Below are positions 6,117 through 50,396 of a stretch of 64,000 nt of DNA, one piece after another. Origin of the DNA: Ramlibacter ginsenosidimutans (lineage in GTDB: Bacteria > Pseudomonadota > Gammaproteobacteria > Burkholderiales > Burkholderiaceae_C); the NCBI RefSeq assembly GCF_016654015.1, contig NZ_JAEPWM010000001.1:620001-684000 (forward strand), given 5' to 3'. The position numbers and the translations under genes were made by a program. The stretch's first letter is position 1. Every line of letters begins with the position of its first letter. The notes below the pieces were generated by a model. It was not told the DNA's origin. It saw nothing but the letters and a program-made list of their open reading frames with translations, and made no database searches.

Positions 6117-7217
6117 CTAAACCCGCTCCAGGAACCTGCGCACCGGCGCAGGCAAACCCAGCGCGGGCCACTCGCTCGCGGAGAACCATTTGCCCTCGCC
6201 CGCGCCCCAGTCGCTCGTGACCACCGCCTGCACAGGATGCAGGTGCAGGTCCTTGTGCGTGAGCACGTGCACGAAGGGTTCGATCTCGCGCAGGCGCCGG
6301 CGCGCCGTCGGGGGCAGCGCGTCTTCCAGCGCATCGCGGCTCGCGAACACGGGCAGGCAGTAAAGCCCCGCCCACACGCCGGGCGTCGGCCGTTTCTGCA
6401 GCCACACCGAGCCGTCGCCCGCCTGCGCATGCAGCAGCCAGAGCGACTCCGCGCTGCGTTTGAGCTTGCGCGTCTTCACGGGGAACGCCTCGGGCCGGCC
6501 CTGCCGGGCCGCGGCGCAATCCGGCTGCGCCGGGCAGATCAGGCAGCTCGGGTTGCGCGGCAGGCACACCGTCGCGCCGAGGTCCATCACGCCTTGCGTG
6601 TAGCGCGGCATGTTCTCGTGCAGTTCGTGCGTGGGCAGCAGTTCGCGCGCGTGCTCCCACAGCCTGCGCTCGTTGGCTGCCAGCGCGAGGTCGTCGTCGA
6701 AACCCAGCACGCGCGTGAGCACGCGCTTGACGTTGCCGTCCAGGATGGCGGCGCGTTCACCGAAGCAGAACGAGGAGATCGCCGCCGCCGTCGAAGGGCC
6801 GATTCCCGGGAGCGTCGCCAGCACGGCCGCCGTGCGCGGGAACGCGCCGCCATGCAGGGCCACGACGTCCTGCGCGCAGCGGTGCAGGTTGCGCGCGCGG
6901 CTGTAGTAGCCCAGGCCGCTCCACAGCGCGAGCACGTCGTCCAGGGGCGCCGCGGCGAGCGCCTGCACGTCGGGGAAGCGTTGCAGGAAGCGCTCGTAGT
7001 AGCCCAGGACGGCCGCCACCTGCGTCTGCTGCAGCATGATTTCCGACAGCCACACGCGATAAGGATCGCGCGTGTTCTGCCACGGCAGCGCGTTGCGGCC
7101 ATGCGTGCGCTGCCAGCGCACCACGCGTTCGGAGAAACCGGCCAGGGCAGGAGCAGGACGGGAAGCTGGCGCTGCGCGCCCGGTGGCCTTGGTGCGGCCG
7201 GTCGGCCGCGCGGTCAC
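6117..7217 (-). CDS. mutY: Adenine DNA glycosylase MutY
   Basis: A 366-residue enzyme that removes A mispaired with 8-oxoguanine. SEIMLQQTQV carries the catalytic Glu59, LPGIGPSTAAAI near 136-147 is the helix-hairpin-helix, and ILDGNVKRV holds the catalytic Asp160. Four Cys at 218, 225, 228 and 234 (C-X6-C-X2-C-X5-C) bind the [4Fe-4S] cluster. A C-terminal NUDT1-like domain follows (for example WLQKRPTPGVWAGLYCLP). No ATG is suitable. I chose GTG at 7217, which lies 8 bases after GGAGG inside repeat unit C1; longer starts would translate that repeat. It is last in the minus-strand order mutM, dynamin-like GTPase, mutY. Confidence 0.95.
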   Translation of the reverse strand: MTARPTGRTKATGRAAPASRPAPALAGFSERVVRWQRTHGRNALPWQNTRDPYRVWLSEIMLQQTQVAAVLGYYERFLQRFPDVQALAAAPLDDVLALWSGLGYYSRARNLHRCAQDVVALHGGAFPRTAAVLATLPGIGPSTAAAISSFCFGERAAILDGNVKRVLTRVLGFDDDLALAANERRLWEHARELLPTHELHENMPRYTQGVMDLGATVCLPRNPSCLICPAQPDCAAARQGRPEAFPVKTRKLKRSAESLWLLHAQAGDGSVWLQKRPTPGVWAGLYCLPVFASRDALEDALPPTARRRLREIEPFVHVLTHKDLHLHPVQAVVTSDWGAGEGKWFSASEWPALGLPAPVRRFLERV

Positions 7218-7276
7218 CGGATCGCCTCCGTGCTGCGCACTGCGGTGTTCGCCCTTGGGGCGGCCCGGCGGGCTCA
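7218..7276 (-). repeat. Stop-to-start linker repeat C1 (GTPase gene to mutY)
   Basis: Read on the minus strand it begins with the TGA stop codon of the GTPase gene and continues GCCCGCCGGGCCGCCCCAAG, and so on, ending GGAGGCGATCCG directly before the GTG of mutY. It is nearly identical to the two tandem units at 12005-12122. The repeat therefore supplies the stop codon, the whole spacer, the Shine-Dalgarno sequence and effectively the start context. Confidence 0.85.
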
Positions 7277-9244
7277 CGCGGTCTTCAGCTCGGGCTCGGC
7301 CGCCTCCTGGGCGTCCCGGTTCGACATCGGCGTGCTGGTGAGGTGCGCGGTGAGCTCGGCGAGCTTGGCATCGAGTTCGTCCAGCGCCGCTTCCTGCGAG
7401 CGGATTTCGGCGATGCGGTCGTCCAGCCCTGTCGCGGCCTGCCGGATGCGGTCGATCGCTTCGAGCCGGCGGCCGAAGTTGCGGCGGCGCTCGCGCAGCT
7501 GCGCATCGAGCTGCGCCGCCGCGGACTTGTTCCACAGCTCCACTTCGCCCAGCGCCGACTCGTAGATCACGCGCAGGCGCGTGGCCAGTGCGCGCACCAG
7601 GCGGTCCGCGAACTCGGGCTGCGCCAGCTTGAGCGCATTGCTCACGCCCAGGTACTGGTTGTGGCTGCGCTCCACCAGGTCGAGGTCACGCTCGTAGCGC
7701 GCCAGGTCCGGCTCGCGCGGCGCCTGCAGCGAGAAGCCGTATTCGGCATTGAGCTGCCGGAAGGTGCCCGTGAGCATGGTCTGGATCTCGCCGCTGACCT
7801 TCTCGGCCTGGCGCAGGCCCTCGCGCAGGCGGTCGAAGGTGCGGGCGTAGGCCTTGCGTACACCGAGCTTCAGGCCTGGCGTGCGCAGGGCGCTCGTGAG
7901 CTCCGCCATCTCGGTCTTGAGCGTGCTCGTTCCCAGCAGGCCGAAGACGTCGCGCAGCAGCTTGAGGTGCACGGAGCGCACGGCGTGGATCTTGGCGCCG
8001 CTCGCGTCGAACTCCGCCTGCTCCTGCTCGATGCGCGCACGCATGTGCTTGATGACGGACGTGTTCTTGCCGCGCAGCCCCTTGAGTTCCACCATCTGCT
8101 CGGCGAGGTCGCGCCGGCGGATGCCCAGCACCCGCGTGGCTTCGGTACGCAGCTCGGAGATGTTGCTCGCCACCGAGGCGCGCAGGATCTTCTGGCGCTG
8201 GTCCAGCACCCCGTGCGCGAGCGCCTGCTCCAGCGCCGGCAGGTTGCTCGCGCGCAGCAGTTCGATGTTGCTGTTGACCTTCGCGACCAGGCCCTTCTGG
8301 CCGGACACCGGGATCACCTGCTGCTCCTGCAGCCCCAGGATTTCGGCGGTCGTGCGGCGCTGGCGCTCGATCTGCGCCTGCACCTGCGCCGGCGTGGACA
8401 GCGCGTCCCACATCGTGTCGATCTTGTTCAACACCACCAGGCGCGAATCGGCGTGGGTGTCTTCGGCGATCAGGTGCTCGCGCCAGATGGCGAGGTCCGA
8501 CTTGGTGACACCGGTGTCGGCGGCCAGGATGAACACCACCGCATGGGCCTGCGGGATCAGGTTGACCGTCAGCTCGGGTTCGGCGCCGATCGCGTTGAGG
8601 CCCGGGGTGTCCAGGATCACGAGCCCCTGCTTGAGCAGCGGGTGCGCGATGTTGATCAGGGCATGGCGCCAGTTCGGAACTTCGACCAGGCCGTCGGCGC
8701 CGGGGATCGGGTTGTCCTCCGGCGACTCCTCGTGCCAGAAGCCCAGGGCCCTGGCCTCGGCGATCGTGACGCGGCGCACCTCGGAGACCTTCTCGAAGGC
8801 CTGCGCGAGCTGCGCGGGATCGTTCACGTCCAGGTCCACCCGGTGCCACTTCTCCGGCACCATGCGCCATTCCATCAGCGGCTGCGTCTGCAGGCGCGTC
8901 TCGATCGGCAGCAGCCGCAGGCAGGGCGGCACTTCGGGGTCGTAGCCCAGCTCGGTCGGGCACATCGTCGTGCGCCCGGCGCTCGCCGGCATGATGCGGC
9001 GCTTGTAGCCCGCAAAGAAGATCGCGTTGATCAGCTCCGACTTGCCGCGCGAGAACTCGGCGACGAAGGCGACCATCACCTTGTCGGAGCGCATCTGGCC
9101 CTCGAGGCGACGCAGGCGCTCTTCGACCGCGCTATCGAGGATGTCGTGGTCCTTCAGCCATTCGCCCAGCAGCTTCAGGCGCAGGGCGAACTCACGCCGC
9201 CATACGCCGTGCTGGTCGAATTGCTCATTGAAAGAAGTACCCAC
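7274..9244 (-). CDS. Dynamin-family GTPase
   Basis: A 656-residue large GTPase. G1 is EFSRGKS (residues 63-69), G2 probably the Thr pair in AGRTTMCPTEL near 92-102, G3 LDTPGLN near 209 and G4 NKID near 272. Long helical, charged stretches between about 330 and 530 suit the dynamin stalk, and a Leu/Glu/Ala-rich coiled coil lies in the last 70 residues. No clear membrane-spanning segment is visible. The frame runs 8 codons further upstream, but GTG at 9244 follows a GGGGGC ribosome site. It lies 48 bases after mutM and before mutY, so it is probably co-transcribed with the two repair glycosylases. Bacterial dynamins often remodel membranes. A role linked to oxidative DNA damage would be an inference from position only. 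Confidence 0.85.
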   Translation of the reverse strand: MGTSFNEQFDQHGVWRREFALRLKLLGEWLKDHDILDSAVEERLRRLEGQMRSDKVMVAFVAEFSRGKSELINAIFFAGYKRRIMPASAGRTTMCPTELGYDPEVPPCLRLLPIETRLQTQPLMEWRMVPEKWHRVDLDVNDPAQLAQAFEKVSEVRRVTIAEARALGFWHEESPEDNPIPGADGLVEVPNWRHALINIAHPLLKQGLVILDTPGLNAIGAEPELTVNLIPQAHAVVFILAADTGVTKSDLAIWREHLIAEDTHADSRLVVLNKIDTMWDALSTPAQVQAQIERQRRTTAEILGLQEQQVIPVSGQKGLVAKVNSNIELLRASNLPALEQALAHGVLDQRQKILRASVASNISELRTEATRVLGIRRRDLAEQMVELKGLRGKNTSVIKHMRARIEQEQAEFDASGAKIHAVRSVHLKLLRDVFGLLGTSTLKTEMAELTSALRTPGLKLGVRKAYARTFDRLREGLRQAEKVSGEIQTMLTGTFRQLNAEYGFSLQAPREPDLARYERDLDLVERSHNQYLGVSNALKLAQPEFADRLVRALATRLRVIYESALGEVELWNKSAAAQLDAQLRERRRNFGRRLEAIDRIRQAATGLDDRIAEIRSQEAALDELDAKLAELTAHLTSTPMSNRDAQEAAEPELKTA

Positions 9245-9292
9245 GGAGCCCCCAACTGTGCAAATCACTATAGCATCCGACCCTTTTTTGCC

Positions 9293-10108
9293 TCAGGACT
9301 TCTGGCACACCGGGCAGAAATACGTTGCGCGCGCGCCCTGCCGGATCGTCCGGATGGGGGAGCCGCAGACGCGGCACGGCTCGCCGGCCCGGTCGTAGAC
9401 CATGGCTTCCAGCTGGAAGTAGCCCGATTCGCCGTGGGCGTTGGAAAAGTCACGCAAGGTGCTGCCTCCCTTGGCCACCGCTTTCGCAAGTACTTCACGG
9501 ATGGCGGCCTGCAGGCGCGCCGCGCGCGGCCGGCTGATGCGGTTGGCAGCCAGCGTGGGGCGGATGCCCGCGAGGAACAGCGCCTCGGAAGCGTAGATGT
9601 TGCCGACGCCCACCACCAGGTCGCCCGCGAGCAGCACCTGCTTGATCGGCGCCTTGCGCTTCTTCAGCCCCGCGTGGAAGGCATCCAGGTCGAACTGGCT
9701 GGTGAGCGGCTCCACGCCCAGGGCGCCCAGCAGCTTCTGCGCCGCGGGCGCGTCTTCGCTCTCCGCGTAGACGACCGCACCGAAACGGCGCGGGTCGTTC
9801 AGGCGCAGCACGCCGCGGCTCGTGACCAGGTCGAAGTGGTCGTGCACCTGTGCAGCGGGCACCTCCGCGTCGAAACGCAGGCTGCCGGACATGCCCAGGT
9901 GCAGCAGGAGCAGGCCCCGGTCCAGGTCCACCAGCAGGTACTTGCCGCGCCGGCGCACGCCACGCACGGTGCGACCGATCAGCGCCTCCGGGGCCACGCC
10001 CATCGGCCAGCGCAGGGGCTTGCCCACGCGCACCGCTTCGATGCGCGCACCCGCGATCCGTTCGGCAAAACTGAGGCGAGTGACCTCGACTTCGGGTAGT
10101 TCGGGCAT
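9293..10108 (-). CDS. mutM: Formamidopyrimidine-DNA glycosylase MutM (Fpg)
   Basis: A 271-residue bifunctional glycosylase/lyase that excises 8-oxoguanine and formamidopyrimidines. It starts MPELPEVE, so Pro1 (after Met removal) and Glu2 form the active site, with Lys56 in [11 protein letters not shown] as the conserved DNA-contacting Lys. The C-terminal zinc finger has Cys at 245, 248, 265 and 268 (C-X2-C-X16-C-X2-C). The length is normal. It is divergent from the TPR gene at 10253 across 144 bases, which should contain both promoters, and is first in the mutM, GTPase, mutY unit. Confidence 0.97.
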
Positions 10109-10252
10109 GGACTGGGTTGGCCGCTGGAGGACTCCCGTGCACGAGCGACCCGCGGCACGGAGCTTCATGGGCGCCGGGGACGATTCCCATGCCGCGACCC
10201 TGGTGCAGCGCGGCGCCGGCCTGGGTTCAGGATCGCGGATTATGATGGTTCG

Positions 10253-12007
10253 ATGATGCGATTCCGCCCGGCGGCCCTGGCCGCCGCCCTCTTCGCCGCC
10301 TGCGCCAGCATGGCGCCGGCCCTCGCTCAAACCACCGGCACCGACACCGGCACGACGGTCGCCGCGGCCCCCGCGAACAGCGGACTCGATGCGGAACTCT
10401 TCTACGAGCTGCTGCTGGGCGAACTGAATTCCCGCGGCGCCGACCCCGGCGTCGGCTTCGCGCTGATCCTCGATGCGGCCCGCAAGACCAACGACCCGGC
10501 GCTGTACCAGCGCGCCGTGGAACTCGCCTTCGAAGCGCGCAGCGGCGACGCCGCGCTGCAGGCGGCCCGGGCGTGGAAGCAGGCCTTTCCGCAGTCGCGC
10601 GAGGCGAACCGCTACGTGCTGCAGATCCTGGTCGCACTCAACAAGCTGCCGGAGAGCGTCGAGCCGCTGCGCACCGAGCTGGCCTTGACCGACCCCGGCG
10701 ACCGCCCGGCCGTGATCGCCGCGATCGCCCGCGCCTATGCGCGCGCCGCCGACAAGAAGGAAGCCGCGGCCACGCTGCAGAAGGGCCTCGCCGATTACCT
10801 GGGCAAGCCCGACACCGGCGCTGCAGCATGGAGCGCCGTGGGCCGCCTGCGGCTCGCTGCCGGAGACACCGCGGGCGCGCTCGATGCCGCACGGCGCGGC
10901 CAGGCGGCGAACCCCAAGGCCGAAGGCCCGGTCCTGCTGGCGCTGGAGATCATGGACCCCAAGGTGCCCGAGGCGGAAGCGCTGGTGCGCAACTACCTGC
11001 AGGGCCAGCCGCTGCCGGAGCTGCGCCTGTCCTATGCGCGCGCGTTGCTCGATGCACAGCGCTCGAGCGAAGCATTGCAGCAGCTGGAGGTGGTGACGCG
11101 CGAGCGTCCCGACTTCCCCGAGGCGTGGCTCGCGCAGGGCTCCCTGCAGGTGCAGGACAACCAGCTCGACGCCGCGGAAGCGTCGCTGAAGAAATACCTG
11201 GCGCTCGTGCAGTCGCAGGGCGCCAGTGAGGAACGCAGCCGCGGGATCGCGCAGGCCTACCTGGCGCTGGCGCAGGTCGAGGAGAAGCGGGGCCACTATG
11301 CGCAGGCCAATGCCTGGCTGGACCGCATCGACAGCGCGCAGGACCTGCTGCAGGCGCAGAGCCGGCGCGCGTCCATCCTCGCGCGGCAGGGGAAGATCGA
11401 CGAAGCGCTCAAGCTGATCCGCGCCGTGCCCGAGCGTTCGCCCGCGGACGCGCGGCTCAAGGGACTGGCCGAAGTGCAGCTGCTGCGGGACAACAAGCAG
11501 TACCAGGCCGCCTATGACGTGCTCGGGCAGATGGTCGCGAAGGATCCCGCCGATCCCGACCTGCTGTACGACCAGGCGATGCTGGCCGAGAAGATGGGCC
11601 ACTTCGACGACATGGAGAAACTGCTGCGCGAGCTGATGGTGAAGAAGCCCGACTACCAGCACGCGTACAACGCGCTGGGCTACTCGCTGGCCGAGCGCAA
11701 CGTGCGGCTGCCCGAGGCCAAGCAGCTGATCGAGAAGGCGCTGCAGTTCTCGCCGGGCGATCCCTTCATCAGCGACAGCCTGGCGTGGGTCGAGTACCGC
11801 ATGGGCAACAAGGCCGACGCGCTGCGCATCCTGCAGGCGGCGTACAAGGAGCGGCCCGATCCCGAGATCGCGGCCCACCTGGGCGAAGTGCTGTGGAGCC
11901 TGGGCCAGCGCGACCAGGCGCAGGCCGTGTGGCGCGAAGGCCTGCTGCAAAGCCCCGACAACGAAACCTTGCAGGAGACGCTCAAGCGCCTGCAGGTGAA
12001 GCCATGA
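10253..12007 (+). CDS. Exported tetratricopeptide-repeat protein
   Basis: A 584-residue protein with a signal peptide (Arg-rich start, Ala-rich core, likely cleavage after APALA near residue 26). The remainder is helical and rich in Ala, Leu and Glu. TPR-like units are clear (for example [20 protein letters not shown] near 285 and [20 protein letters not shown] near 465-485), with more, weaker units in between. TPR arrays bind partner proteins; a periplasmic or outer-membrane scaffold role fits the signal peptide and the neighbouring lolB, whose product inserts lipoproteins into the outer membrane. The start could equally be the second Met. It ends inside the linker repeat that leads to lolB, so the two are probably translated from one transcript. 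Confidence 0.85.
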
Positions 12008-12122
12008 GCCCGCCGGGCCGCCCCAAGGGCGAATACCGCAGTGCGCAGCACGAAGGTGCCTCAGTGACCCGCCGGGCCGCCCCAAGGCGAATCCCGCAGT
12101 CCGCAGGACGGAGGGTAATCCC
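12005..12122 (+). repeat. Stop-to-start linker repeats C2 and C3 in tandem (TPR gene to lolB)
   Basis: Two head-to-tail copies of the unit seen at 7218-7276. C2 (12005-12062) starts with the TGA stop codon of the TPR gene. C3 (12065-12122) also starts with TGA and ends GGAGGGTAATCCC before the GTG of lolB. Shared blocks are CGCCGGGCCGCCCCAAG, then GCGAAT-CCGCAGT-CGCAG, then the A/G-rich ribosome site. Short open frames such as [18 protein letters not shown] come from the repeat. Confidence 0.88.
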
Positions 12123-12614
12123 GTGACTGCGCGTGCGCTGGCGCGATGGGGCGCGACGGCGGCTTGCGCCCTGCTGCTGGCCGCGTGCGCGACGCCACCC
12201 ACCGTCGCCCCTGCCGGCGTCCAGCAGTGGAACGGGCGGCTCGCGCTGAACGTGGAGGGCGAGGCCAGTCGCTCCTTCTCCGCGGGCTTCGAACTCAAGG
12301 GCGCGCCCGAGCAAGGGGAGCTGACCCTGTTCAATCCGCTGGGCGGCACGCTCGCCGTGCTGGATTGGGCGCCGGGCACCGCCACGCTGCGGGCCGAGGG
12401 CAAGACCCGCGCGTTCGGCTCGCTGGATGAACTCGCGCAGCAAGCCACCGGTGCGCCGCTGCCCGTGGCCTCGCTGTTCGACTGGCTGCAGGGCAAGGCC
12501 ACGGCCGTCGCCGGCTGGCAGGCCGACGTGAGCCAGGTCCGCGAGGGCCGGCTGCACGCGCGCCGCACGGACCCCCCACCGCTGGCCGACCTGCGCCTGG
12601 TGTTCGAACGTTAA
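12123..12614 (+). CDS. lolB: Outer-membrane lipoprotein LolB
   Basis: A 163-residue lipoprotein that receives lipoproteins from LolA and inserts them into the outer membrane. The signal peptide ends in LLAAC with the lipidated Cys at residue 22. [25 protein letters not shown] and [16 protein letters not shown] match the half-barrel strands of LolB. The GTG start is set by GGAGG 8 bases upstream within repeat unit C3. ispE follows after 3 bases, the usual lolB-ispE arrangement in proteobacteria. Confidence 0.92.
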
Positions 12615-37130: not shown

Positions 37131-38003
37131 TCAGGTGATGAGGTAGTGATCGACGAGCAGCGCGGCGAACAGCACGCTCAGGTGGATCAGCGAGAACCGG
37201 AAGGTCTTGCGCGCGAGTGCATCGGAGTACGAGCGCCACAGCCGGAAGCCGTGCCAGGCGAACCCGGCGCTCAGGACGACCGCGGCGGCCAGGTAGATCC
37301 AGGAGCTCATGCCGTAGGCGAAGGGCATCAGGCAGGCTGCGAACAGCACGATCGTGTACAGCAGGATCTGCAGGCGCGTGAACTCGTTGCCGTGCGTCAC
37401 CGGCAGCATCGGCAGTCCCGACTTGCGATAGTCCTCCACGCGGTACAGCGCCAGCGCCCAGAAGTGCGGCGGCGTCCACAGGAAGATGATCAGGAACAGG
37501 ATCAGCGCCTCGGGCCCGACGTCCCCGCGCAGCGCGGCCCAGCCCAGCACCGGCGGCATGGCGCCGGACGCGCCGCCGATGACGATGTTCTGCGGCGTCA
37601 GCGGCTTGAGGATGACGGTGTAGATCACCGCGTAGCCGATGAAGGTGCCCAGCGTCAGCCACATCGTGAGCGGGTTCACCCACACGTAGAGCAGCCACGA
37701 GCCCAGCGCGCACAGCGCCGCCGAGAACAGCAGCGTCTGCCAGTCGCTCAGCTCGCCCTTGGCGGTCGGGCGCCACGCGGTGCGCCGCATCTTCGCGTCG
37801 ATGCCCTTCTCCACCAGGCAGTTGAAGGCTGCGGCGGCGCCGGCCACCAGCCAGATGCCGAAGCAGGCGATCACGGCGATGCGCACATCGTCCCAGCTCG
37901 GGATGCCGGGCACGGCGAGCACCATGCCGATCAGCGCGCAGAACACGATCAGCTGGATGACGCGCGGCTTCATGAGCGCGTAGAACTGGCGCACGACGTT
38001 CAT
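37131..38003 (-). CDS. ctaB: Protoheme IX farnesyltransferase (heme O synthase)
   Basis: A 290-residue UbiA-family inner-membrane enzyme that attaches farnesyl to heme b, giving heme [20 protein letters not shown] opens the protein. [20 protein letters not shown] near 60-80 holds the N-x3-D-x2-D prenyl-diphosphate motif in its CtaB form, and [27 protein letters not shown] near 175-200 is the heme-O-synthase signature. About eight or nine membrane segments are present. The ATG follows linker unit C4, which joins it to ctaA. Confidence 0.96.
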
Positions 38004-38068
38004 GTTCAGCGCGCCACCCTGCGCAGCGTGCGCGGCAGGGTTCGGTTTCGCGGCGGTGCGGCGGTTCA
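38004..38068 (-). repeat. Stop-to-start linker repeat C4 (ctaA to ctaB)
   Basis: A diverged copy of the unit at 7218-7276. On the minus strand it starts with the TGA stop codon of ctaA, then ACCGCCGCACCGCCGCGAAA, a CGAACCCTGCCGC block and CGCTGCGCAGGGTGGCG, and ends at the ATG of ctaB. In translation it reads [18 protein letters not shown], similar in pattern to the copy at 49705-49781. Confidence 0.65.
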
Positions 38069-39223
38069 CTGCGCGACCCTCCGCACTTCGTGCGCATGCA
38101 TCGCCGGCTGTGGCTGCACGGCCGCGGCGCGGCTCTCGCGCAGCGCCCAGGTGAGCGCGACCACGAGCGCCGCCGCGCCGCCGGTGTGAGAGACCGCGGC
38201 CACGAGGGGCCAGTCCAGCACCACGTTCGACAGGCCGGTCGCGAACTGCCACAGCGCCAGTGCCGCGACGATGCGGCTCGTCGCGTGCAGCGCCGTGCCG
38301 CGCAGGCGCCAGGCCAGCACGCCCAGCACGACGAACAACGCATAAGCCACCAGCCGGTGCGTGTAGTGGATGGCCGTCAGCGCGGGGAAGGCGATCAGGT
38401 CGCCCGCGCCCGTGTGGCCCAGCCCCCGCCACAGCTCGAAGCCTTGCGAAAAGTACATCGTCGGCCACCAGCTGCCCTGGCATTGCGGGAAGGTGCTGCA
38501 CGCGAGCACCGCATAGTTGGTGCTGACCCAGCCGCCCAGCGCGACCTGCAGCCAGAGCAGCGCATATGCGCCCACCAGCCACCGGCGCGCTGGCGCGGGA
38601 ATTTCCGCCGGCCCGGCGCCGCGCTGCGCCTGCCGGTAGGCCACCGCCTGCATCGCGAGCAGCGCCAGCAGCACGAGGCCGCCCAGCAGGTGCATCGTGA
38701 CGATTGCCGGGAACAGCTTCATCGTGACGGTGAGCGCACCGAAGGCGCCCTGCAGGCAGATCCATGCCAGCGTCAGCGCGGGCCAGCGCGGTTGCACGGG
38801 CACGCCCCGCTTGCGCTGCAGCCACGTCGCGAGCGTGAGCGTGGCGATCAGCACGCCCACGCCGGTCGCCAGGTAACGGTGGACCATCTCGACCCAGGCC
38901 TTGCCCTGCGTCACGGGCCCGTTGGGCATGCGCGTCTCCTCCGTGCGGATCTCATGGACGGCGCCGACCGGACTCGCGTTGCCGTAACAGCCCGGCCAGT
39001 CGGGGCAGCCCAGGCCGGAATCGGTGAGGCGCGTGAAGGCGCCGAACAGCACGAGGTCGAAGGTGAGGAACAGCGTCAGGACCGTGAGCGCGCCGAGCCG
39101 CTGGCCGGTGGCGGCCTGCTGGTGCCGCAGCCAGATCCAGGCGAGCGGGCCCGATGCGACCGCGATGCCCAGCAGCGCGACGCGCAGCGCGGGCGCGAGG
39201 TCATACAGCGAAGCGTGGTCCAT
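38066..39223 (-). CDS. ctaA: Heme A synthase CtaA (Cox15)
   Basis: A 385-residue inner-membrane protein that oxidises heme O to heme A. It has about eight hydrophobic segments. [21 protein letters not shown] near 61-81 is the signature, with conserved Cys. [30 protein letters not shown] and SHTGGAAAL carry the four heme-ligand His. [14 protein letters not shown] near 230 is the second Cys loop. It follows the Sco-like gene by 4 bases. Confidence 0.95.
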
Positions 39224-49222: not shown

Positions 49223-49678
49223 TCAGGCGTAGCGGCGGGTGAGCGATTCGGCGATGCACACCGGCTTGTCGCTGCCTTCCCGTTCCACGGTGACGCTCCA
49301 GGTCATCTGGTAGCCGTTGTCGGGGATGGGCTCGCAGGCGAGCAGGCTCATGCGCGCCCGCAAGCGGCTGCCCACCGGCACCGGCGCCGTGAAGCGGACC
49401 CGGTTCAGGCCGTAGTTCACGCCCATGCGGGTATCGAGCACTTCCAGCGCGGATTCGAAGAACTTCGGCAGCAGCGACAGGGTGAGGAAGCCGTGCGCGA
49501 TTGGTGCGCCGAACGGGCCTCGCTGCGCGCGCTCGACATCGACATGGATCCACTGGTGGTCCCCGGTCGCTTCGGCGAACAGGTTCACCTGCTGCTGCGT
49601 GACGGTGATCCAGTCGCTGACCGCGACCTCCTGGCCCACAAGCGCCGCCAGGTCCGCGAGTTTCTCGAAGGTTCTCAT
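49223..49678 (-). CDS. MaoC-like dehydratase/hydratase
   Basis: A 151-residue hotdog-fold protein. Hydratase-2 features are visible: TVTQQQVNLFAEATGDHQWIHVD near 26-48 with catalytic Asp and His, then GPFGAPIAHGFLTLSLLPKF near 54-73. It resembles (R)-specific enoyl-CoA hydratases and NodN-like proteins. The substrate is probably a CoA thioester, not known in detail. ATG at 49678 is chosen over a TTG three codons upstream. It lies downstream of the ParA-like gene behind linker unit C5. Confidence 0.88.
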   Translation of the reverse strand: MRTFEKLADLAALVGQEVAVSDWITVTQQQVNLFAEATGDHQWIHVDVERAQRGPFGAPIAHGFLTLSLLPKFFESALEVLDTRMGVNYGLNRVRFTAPVPVGSRLRARMSLLACEPIPDNGYQMTWSVTVEREGSDKPVCIAESLTRRYA

Positions 49679-49704
49679 GCCGCGCAATGTAGCGCGGCGG
49701 GCGC

Positions 49705-49781
49705 TGCGCCGGCGTCGCTCAGTGGACTACCCTCCACGCTGCGCGTTGTGGGATTCGCCTTGGCAGCGGCGCGACGGCTCA
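49705..49781 (-). repeat. Stop-to-start linker repeat C5 (parA-like to MaoC-like)
   Basis: A diverged copy of the unit at 7218-7276. On the minus strand it begins with the TGA stop codon of the ParA-like gene, then GCCGTCGCGCCGCTGCCAAG, GCGAATCCCACAACGCGCAG and GTGGAGGGTAGTCC. It is closest to unit C3 (12065-12122). The next start codon lies about 30 bases further on. Confidence 0.7.
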
Positions 49782-50396
49782 GGCGTCCAGCCAGCGCTGG
49801 ATGCCCTGCCACTGCTCCAGGTCGCGCTCGACCTTCGTGGGCGCGAGGTCCGACAGCGTCAGTCCGCGCGCGGCCAGGTACACGTAGTTCTGCGTGGGAC
49901 GCAGGAAGCCCAGCACCGGCAGGCCGAGCGCGTGCGTGAACTCCTGGAGCTTGTCCGCGGCGATGGTGCGCTGGTCCACGCGCGTGCCGACGATGCCCAC
50001 CTGCATGCGGCCGGCCTTGCGGTGCTGGGCCAGTTCGTCCAGGAAGGCGCGGGTCGCGTACATGTCGAAGATGCTGGGCGACAGCGGCACCACCACCTTG
50101 TCGGCGGTGCGCAGGACTTCTTCCATCCACTTGCCGTGCAGGCCGGCCGGGGTGTCCAGCACGACGTGCGTCGTGCCCTTGGGCGGCTTGGCGATCTGGC
50201 CCTTGCTCAGCTCCCAGCTTGCGATGGGCCGCGCCTCCGCGGGGCGCAGCCGCAGCCACAGCAGCGAGGACTGCTGGCGGTCCGCATCGCCCAGCATGAC
50301 CTGGTGGCCCTGGCTGGCGAAATAGCCAGCGATGTTGGTGGCGACCGTCGTCTTGCCCACCCCGCCCTTCGGATTCGCAACCACCACGACCGGCAT
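49779..50396 (-). CDS. Orphan ParA-family ATPase
   Basis: A 205-residue Walker-type ATPase. The deviant Walker A KGGVGKTT is at residues 10-17, GDADRQQSSLLW near 36-47 is the A' region, and VVLDTPAGLHGKW near 77-89 is Walker B. The C-terminus has QVGIVGTRVDQRT near 131. No ParB or centromere-like repeat is nearby, so chromosome partition is unlikely. Small orphan ParA proteins position other cargo such as chemoreceptor arrays or act in cell polarity; the cargo cannot be told. It ends in linker unit C5. Confidence 0.88.
   Translation of the reverse strand: MPVVVVANPKGGVGKTTVATNIAGYFASQGHQVMLGDADRQQSSLLWLRLRPAEARPIASWELSKGQIAKPPKGTTHVVLDTPAGLHGKWMEEVLRTADKVVVPLSPSIFDMYATRAFLDELAQHRKAGRMQVGIVGTRVDQRTIAADKLQEFTHALGLPVLGFLRPTQNYVYLAARGLTLSDLAPTKVERDLEQWQGIQRWLDA

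Follow-up and report, generated by a model that had tools for sequence, protein, structure and literature searches.

The stretch of DNA analysed here (the window) comprises 64,000 nucleotides of the Ramlibacter ginsenosidimutans genome (contig NZ_JAEPWM010000001.1, forward-strand positions 620,001 to 684,000), and contains copies of a short repeat, hereafter the unit, at four gene junctions (Table 1). A first-pass annotation, prepared from the letters alone, had reported near-identical units of about 60 bases in front of mutY and, as a tandem pair, in front of lolB. These units are real, occupy positions 7218-7277 and 12004-12122, respectively, and do run from the upstream stop codon to the GTG of mutY and of lolB; the mutY copy and the first lolB unit are 89% identical. 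The TGA with which the unit was said to start is indeed the stop codon of the upstream gene, but the base that precedes it (A in 150 of the 166 stop-anchored copies described below) is also part of the unit. Two diverged copies had been proposed as well. The copy between the parA-like and MaoC-like genes is a sound member, but the MaoC start is not at the unit end; a 35-codon frame leads from the unit to a TGA that overlaps the MaoC ATG by 4 bases. The copy between ctaA and ctaB is a weak match; its placement agrees with that of the other copies, and its frame enters CtaB. The proposed stop-to-start span is valid for mutY and lolB; at the other two window loci, the downstream start codon is not at the unit end.

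Table 1. Units and flanking genes in the window (ORF, open reading frame; coordinates are positions of the window)
Feature	Coordinates	Strand	Basis or remark
Unit 1 (60-nt class)	7218..7277	minus	TGA 7274-7276 is the upstream stop; adjoins mutY GTG 7215-7217
MutY-type gene (HhH-GPD + NUDIX_4), downstream of unit 1	6117..7217	minus	Pfam
Dynamin_N GTPase gene, upstream of unit 1	7274..9268	minus	Pfam and listed ORF; start unsettled
Unit 2a (60-nt class)	12004..12063	plus	TGA 12005-12007 is the TPR gene stop
Unit 2b (59-nt class), tandem with 2a	12064..12122	plus	Adjoins lolB GTG
40-codon putative relay ORF spanning units 2a and 2b	12004..12126	plus	TGA and lolB GTG overlap by 4 nt; by translation
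TPR protein gene, upstream of unit 2a	10253..12007	plus	Pfam
lolB, downstream of unit 2b	12123..12614	plus	Pfam LolB
Diverged unit	49715..49784	minus	76.4 bits; TGA 49779-49781 is the stop of the ParA-like gene
35-codon frame from the diverged unit	49675..49782	minus	CTG replaces ATG; stop overlaps MaoC ATG (49676-49678) by 4 nt
Weak diverged unit, ctaA-ctaB	38002..38071	minus	25.3 bits, E 0.0032; frame from its GTG enters CtaB

The source genome (5.33 Mb, 26 contigs) was searched with a single copy, a 65-mer, and later with a covariance model for which 23 copies were used. For the 65-mer, 22 matches reached E <= 2e-6, none of them shorter than 47 bases, while the covariance model revealed 39 copies at 25 bits or more (E <= 0.0032); chance similarity was rejected on the strength of these matches. 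The unit TGA was the stop codon of a co-directed gene in 34 of the 39 copies; two more were second units of a tandem and three were exceptions. On the downstream side, 27 copies ended on the in-frame start codon of the next gene, two preceded another unit, four faced a convergent gene, and six had a start elsewhere. Ascertainment bias caused by the TGA in the model was rejected, since a core-only model without the TGA ends gave 34 matches in the same genome at E <= 0.05, every one of them already known.

For a wider view, 243 distinct copies from the source genome, its relatives, other genera, and named contigs were pooled. Many of these copies are not independent of each other, and at least 81 named stretches were retrieved with a TGA-containing motif, by which the TGA was preselected and its role as a gene stop was not. 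Genes were called by a codon-usage script trained on the window, with approximate start positions. Upstream, 166 copies were stop-anchored, 29 followed another unit, and 21 had the end of a co-directed gene 1-120 nt away; in the remainder, the gene end was farther (9 copies), no gene was called (7), or the neighbouring gene was on the opposite strand (11). Downstream, a start codon was found at the unit end in 171 copies, another unit in 35, a co-directed gene with its start elsewhere in 21, a convergent gene in 14, and no gene in 2. None of the 243 copies was inside a called gene. Placement at random relative to stop and start codons, which the first-pass annotation had set as the outcome that would refute its proposal, was therefore not observed. 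Where a stop-anchored copy had a start codon at its end (120 copies), the tetranucleotide at this start was NTGA in all but three cases (117, including 65 ATGA and 50 GTGA).

To compare orthologous junctions, 60 genomes of the genus were searched with the C-terminal parts of three upstream proteins (matches in 59, 54, and 60 genomes, respectively), and the best 30 loci per junction were inspected, with unit presence judged by alignment score. At the TPR-lolB junction, a unit was present in the window genome only (1 of 30 loci), and 27 of the 29 others contained a four-nucleotide NTGA overlap of stop and start at that point. The best-matching relatives read ccGTGA, and the occupied site reads ccATGAGCC...CCCGTGA. 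The insert at lolB supplies its own ATGA, which is the new upstream stop, and the old GTG stays as the downstream start; this agrees with the prevalence of A before the TGA of stop-anchored copies, while downstream starts vary. At a third junction, flanked by a PLD-domain gene and by one that matched no Pfam family (nicknamed exo), the source genome's own copy was the only unit among 30 loci; NTGA was found in 15 of the 29 others, and a TAG stop in eight of the rest. The 30 loci of the dynamin-mutY junction included four full units (the window and three others), five relics, and one marginal case, and 16 of the remaining 20 had an NTGA overlap. When the three junctions were pooled, 58 of 78 loci without a unit had the -4 overlap; among neighbouring genes on the same strand of the window, 8 of 50 had it. 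Since unit-free orthologues mostly carry an NTGA overlap at that very point, we conclude that the unit inserts there. The comparison with unit-free loci, which had been suggested as a check, thus came out in favour of the proposed portability and exact placement, and the differing occupancy of orthologous sites marks the unit as mobile.

The eroded units at the dynamin-mutY junction are L294, L295, L296, L299, and L301. The last four are, by alignment score, relics and not -4 overlaps. In these four, though not in L294, the NTG frame is open for at least 60 codons, and relics of this kind may turn into coding N-termini. L326 was rejected as a unit by alignment score, and L316 is marginal.

The unit is mostly 59-63 nt long and consists of [A]TGAGCC(C)GCCGGGCCGCYCCAAGG(G)CGAAT..CCGCA, a stem-loop-stem, CGGAGG, a few bases, and NTGA. 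Two length classes are told apart by one base on either side of stem 1 (GCCC..GGGC versus GCC..GGC); further ones are 62-63 nt. Two hairpins in the unit covary, and the 3' strand of one of them is the Shine-Dalgarno sequence. In 23 copies from the source genome, 97.8% of cells were paired and 23 cells were double-changed, compared with 7.7 in shuffled data. A structure-blind MAFFT alignment of 86 copies in the 59-nt class, drawn from many genomes, had 95.8% of cells paired and 71 double-changed, compared with 15.5 in shuffled data and at most 28 with slid partners. A single outer-stem pair, which involves the last base of the Shine-Dalgarno strand, contributed 33 of the 71 double changes and was unpaired in 10 sequences.

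The reading phase of the units was skewed. Among the 120 copies with both a stop anchor and a start at the unit end, 101 were in what we call the relay phase (the frame of the unit's own NTG reaches a second NTGA), 19 were in frame with the downstream gene, and none was in the third phase. Earlier stops were absent from 96 of the 101 relay-phase copies and from all 19 in-frame copies. When a start was found at the unit end without a stop anchor, the third phase occurred in 10 of 51 copies (Fisher p 2.8e-6 against 0 of 120). Tandem copies share NTGA, and match lists yielded at least 49 adjacent spacings, in 14 genomes; 48 of 49 were 0 or 2 modulo 3 (59, 60, 62, 63, or 65), while the odd one was 67 by the 5' end and 62 by the other end. 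In one genome (G007), the spacing was 62 ten times, 63 seven times, 60 once, and 61 or 64 never. All four window loci fit the allowed phases, mutY and ctaB in frame (the GTG of unit 1, 7275-7277, shares its reading frame with mutY), and lolB and MaoC via a stop/start overlap.

Based on these data, the unit is probably a short mobile element, found in Burkholderiales, whose mini-ORF preserves translational coupling by a ribosome relay. The element inserts directionally at the NTGA start of a gene, mostly where this NTGA doubles as the upstream stop in a four-nucleotide overlap. We infer that a ribosome finishing the upstream gene would restart on the unit's own overlapping NTG and translate a mini-ORF of about 20 codons, melting the hairpin whose 3' strand holds the Shine-Dalgarno sequence. 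In the relay class (59/62 nt), the mini-ORF would end on the second NTGA overlap and the ribosome would restart on the downstream gene; in the in-frame class (60/63 nt), the mini-ORF would continue into the downstream gene as an N-terminal extension. Coupling would thereby survive an insertion that otherwise parts stop and start by about 60 nt. In published reporter experiments (PMC10666635), a stop-to-start distance of about 22 nt abolished reinitiation in Haloferax, and one of 38 nt reduced it by 80-100% in Escherichia coli; a spacer of 59 nt and nothing more should therefore uncouple the two genes. Of the 166 stop-anchored copies, 46 had a Shine-Dalgarno match of at least five bases ahead of their own NTG, compared with 29.7% of 101 native -4 overlaps and 19 of 274 other gene ends. 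As this match is about as frequent as at native -4 overlaps, the former ribosome site of the downstream gene could now serve the mini-ORF.

The first-pass annotation had described the unit as a portable translational coupler. Its portability and exact placement were borne out, both genome-wide and at unit-free sites, but most of the pairs already overlapped by 4 bases. Because the unit lengthens the spacing in pairs that mostly overlapped beforehand, a mobile element that avoids breaking coupling appears to be a better description of it than a device that creates coupling.

Several points weigh against a relay function. Coupling is impossible on one side of those copies with a convergent gene downstream (14 of 243) or an opposite-strand gene upstream (11 of 243), and of the 101 copies in relay phase, 5 have an early stop. 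Because length classes are passed on by descent, the phase counts do not represent independent events. Likewise, five of the ten third-phase copies (L094, L101, L103, L109, and L149, all from Variovorax) are probably one orthologous locus, with the start at +54 and, upstream, either no called gene or none nearer than about 1.9 kb. In a looser count, restricted to units with a complete downstream gene within 250 nt, the NTG frame joined the downstream gene (in frame, at -4, or at -1) in 109 of 120 units versus 68 of 112 ordinary pairs. We think that this control is inflated by misplaced starts of the gene caller; it was not used and does not help the case. The folding energy of five single copies was no better than that of shuffled sequences (z -0.01 to -0.92), which leaves covariation as the sole structural evidence. 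Finally, a 2025 review cites one study in which spacing between -4 and +25 nt made no difference, and another that links structure just past the stop codon to weaker coupling (PMC12548453).

A purely selfish repeat, similar to miniature inverted-repeat transposable elements, is a less likely alternative. Its machinery would recognise NTGA or initiation sites, and it would bring its own Shine-Dalgarno sequence, making the downstream start independent of any relay. Such a repeat accounts for mobility and orientation, as well as for the Shine-Dalgarno matches at the 120 downstream starts (at least 4 bases in 95% and at least 5 bases in 79%). It does not predict that stop-anchored copies lack the third phase, that this phase is rare among tandem spacings, or that the in-frame class is entirely free of stops. 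Less likely by far is an RNA switch or structural attenuator, in which the Shine-Dalgarno hairpin gates the downstream gene on a signal and the mini-ORF is incidental. The covarying hairpin would suit this role, but the five named downstream genes (MutY, LolB, CtaB, MaoC, and PhnK) have no common function, occupancy of orthologous sites is patchy, and an Rfam scan of the window at the gathering threshold revealed two tRNAs only and no known RNA family over the unit. A coding module under selection for an N-terminal peptide extension is scarcely credible: PhnK on a Variovorax plasmid (L353:1502-2335) is annotated from the unit's NTG, which is possibly a misannotation or a true extension, and four mutY-orthologue relics have long open frames, but the 59/62-nt and 60/63-nt classes yield different peptides from the same bases, the relay class is not joined to the downstream protein, and one conserved peptide as the essence of the unit was rejected, as the length classes are read in different frames.

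In a large bacterial group, overlapping gene pairs have taken up insertions with coupling apparently kept. Pairs of genomes with and without a unit at one junction would make the division of work between reinitiation and RNA unfolding testable in nature. For in-frame units, downstream start codons may be misannotated, possibly as in the annotated PhnK.

The distribution of the unit was followed by covariance searches that spanned Pseudomonadota; in the large searches few candidates were scored, and copy counts per genome are lower bounds. Within the genus, 22 of 25 genomes matched at E <= 0.001, among them G012, whose sole match (L081) is weak and resembles another repeat, described below; in the same search, none of 16 genomes from other families of the order matched. 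Of 200 genomes in the family, 92 matched at 1e-5, as did 73 of 141 genera. In an order sample, 14 of 300 genomes matched, of which eight belong to five other families, and in a phylum sample, 5 of 299 genomes matched, all within the family. Named matches were mostly from Ramlibacter and Variovorax, with others from Caenimonas, Polaromonas, Rhodoferax, and, weakly, Hydrogenophaga; three plasmid records of Variovorax and Diaphorobacter also carried the unit. Carriage by phages was rejected, as a phage collection contained no match at E <= 0.01. One copy (L139) lies in the metagenome-assembled genome CAN_BIN34, which is titled Pseudoxanthomonas and shares its series with the copy-rich Ramlibacter bin CAN_BIN32; this copy possibly reflects binning contamination. 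The other repeat contains the 18-mer CGCCGGGCCGCCCCAAGG, or a sequence near it, joined instead to CCCCCTCGGGGGG, and is terminator-like. Besides L081, it occurs at four sites of the source genome (L023-L026, at C20:201721, C23:41670, C10:37044, and C6:48323), three of them between called genes and one (L026) within a called gene.

Among the papers listed in searches of PMC full text, no description of the repeat turned up, and its literal 16-base core, searched on both strands, was found in 0 papers; other literature lay outside this search. The unit resembles REP/BIME (RAYT) sequences in being a short, structured, extragenic repeat with many copies, at times arrayed. At least some of the REP sequences tabulated in one paper (PMC2817692) have GTAG or GTGG at or close to their start. 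In contrast, the unit begins with ATGAGCC and lacks such a foot, GTAG being found inside some copies, and it is tied to stop and start codons and to gene direction. Native -4 overlaps (ATGA/GTGA) have the same layout as most unit-free sites and as both unit ends, and their coupling requires overlap or very short spacing, as stated in the reporter paper (PMC10666635). Unlike the unit, native overlaps are neither repeated nor mobile.

The mycobacterial interspersed repetitive units (MIRUs) offer another comparison. Supply, in 1997, is said to have given their target as DTGA, with overlap at both ends. The 2025 review (PMC12548453) describes MIRUs as apparently mobile and inserted at start codons, with an ORF of their own that has a spacing of -4 to the gene. 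Between senX3 and regX3, the tandem copies measure 77 and 53 bp (PMC4213456). The first-pass annotation knew of no named family that fits the unit; for its logic, MIRUs are a named precedent, while its sequence appeared in no paper searched. The unit likewise sits at start codons and overlapping stop-start sites, as do its empty sites, forms tandem arrays, and varies in occupancy of orthologous sites; in layout, a clean -4 relay is present in 96 of 120 units, next to 19 in-frame fusions and 5 with an early stop. It differs in being found in a different phylum, in its length of about 59-63 nt, in having two covarying hairpins with the Shine-Dalgarno sequence in a 3' strand, and in the coexistence of relay and in-frame fusion. 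An exact 27-base motif of the unit occurred in at least 81 contig stretches, none titled Mycobacterium among the matches listed. We therefore regard the unit as apparently MIRU-like and not as a MIRU, the likeness being one of layout and described behaviour. By this comparison, a logic described for mycobacteria would recur in another phylum, in a sequence undescribed in the literature searched. Tentatively, we suggest that relay cassettes of Burkholderiales may have arisen independently of MIRUs, with selection holding insertions and tandems in the two passable phases, and the hairpin shutting the Shine-Dalgarno sequence until a ribosome passes. If this is true, such elements would represent a general class of operon insertion that evades polarity.

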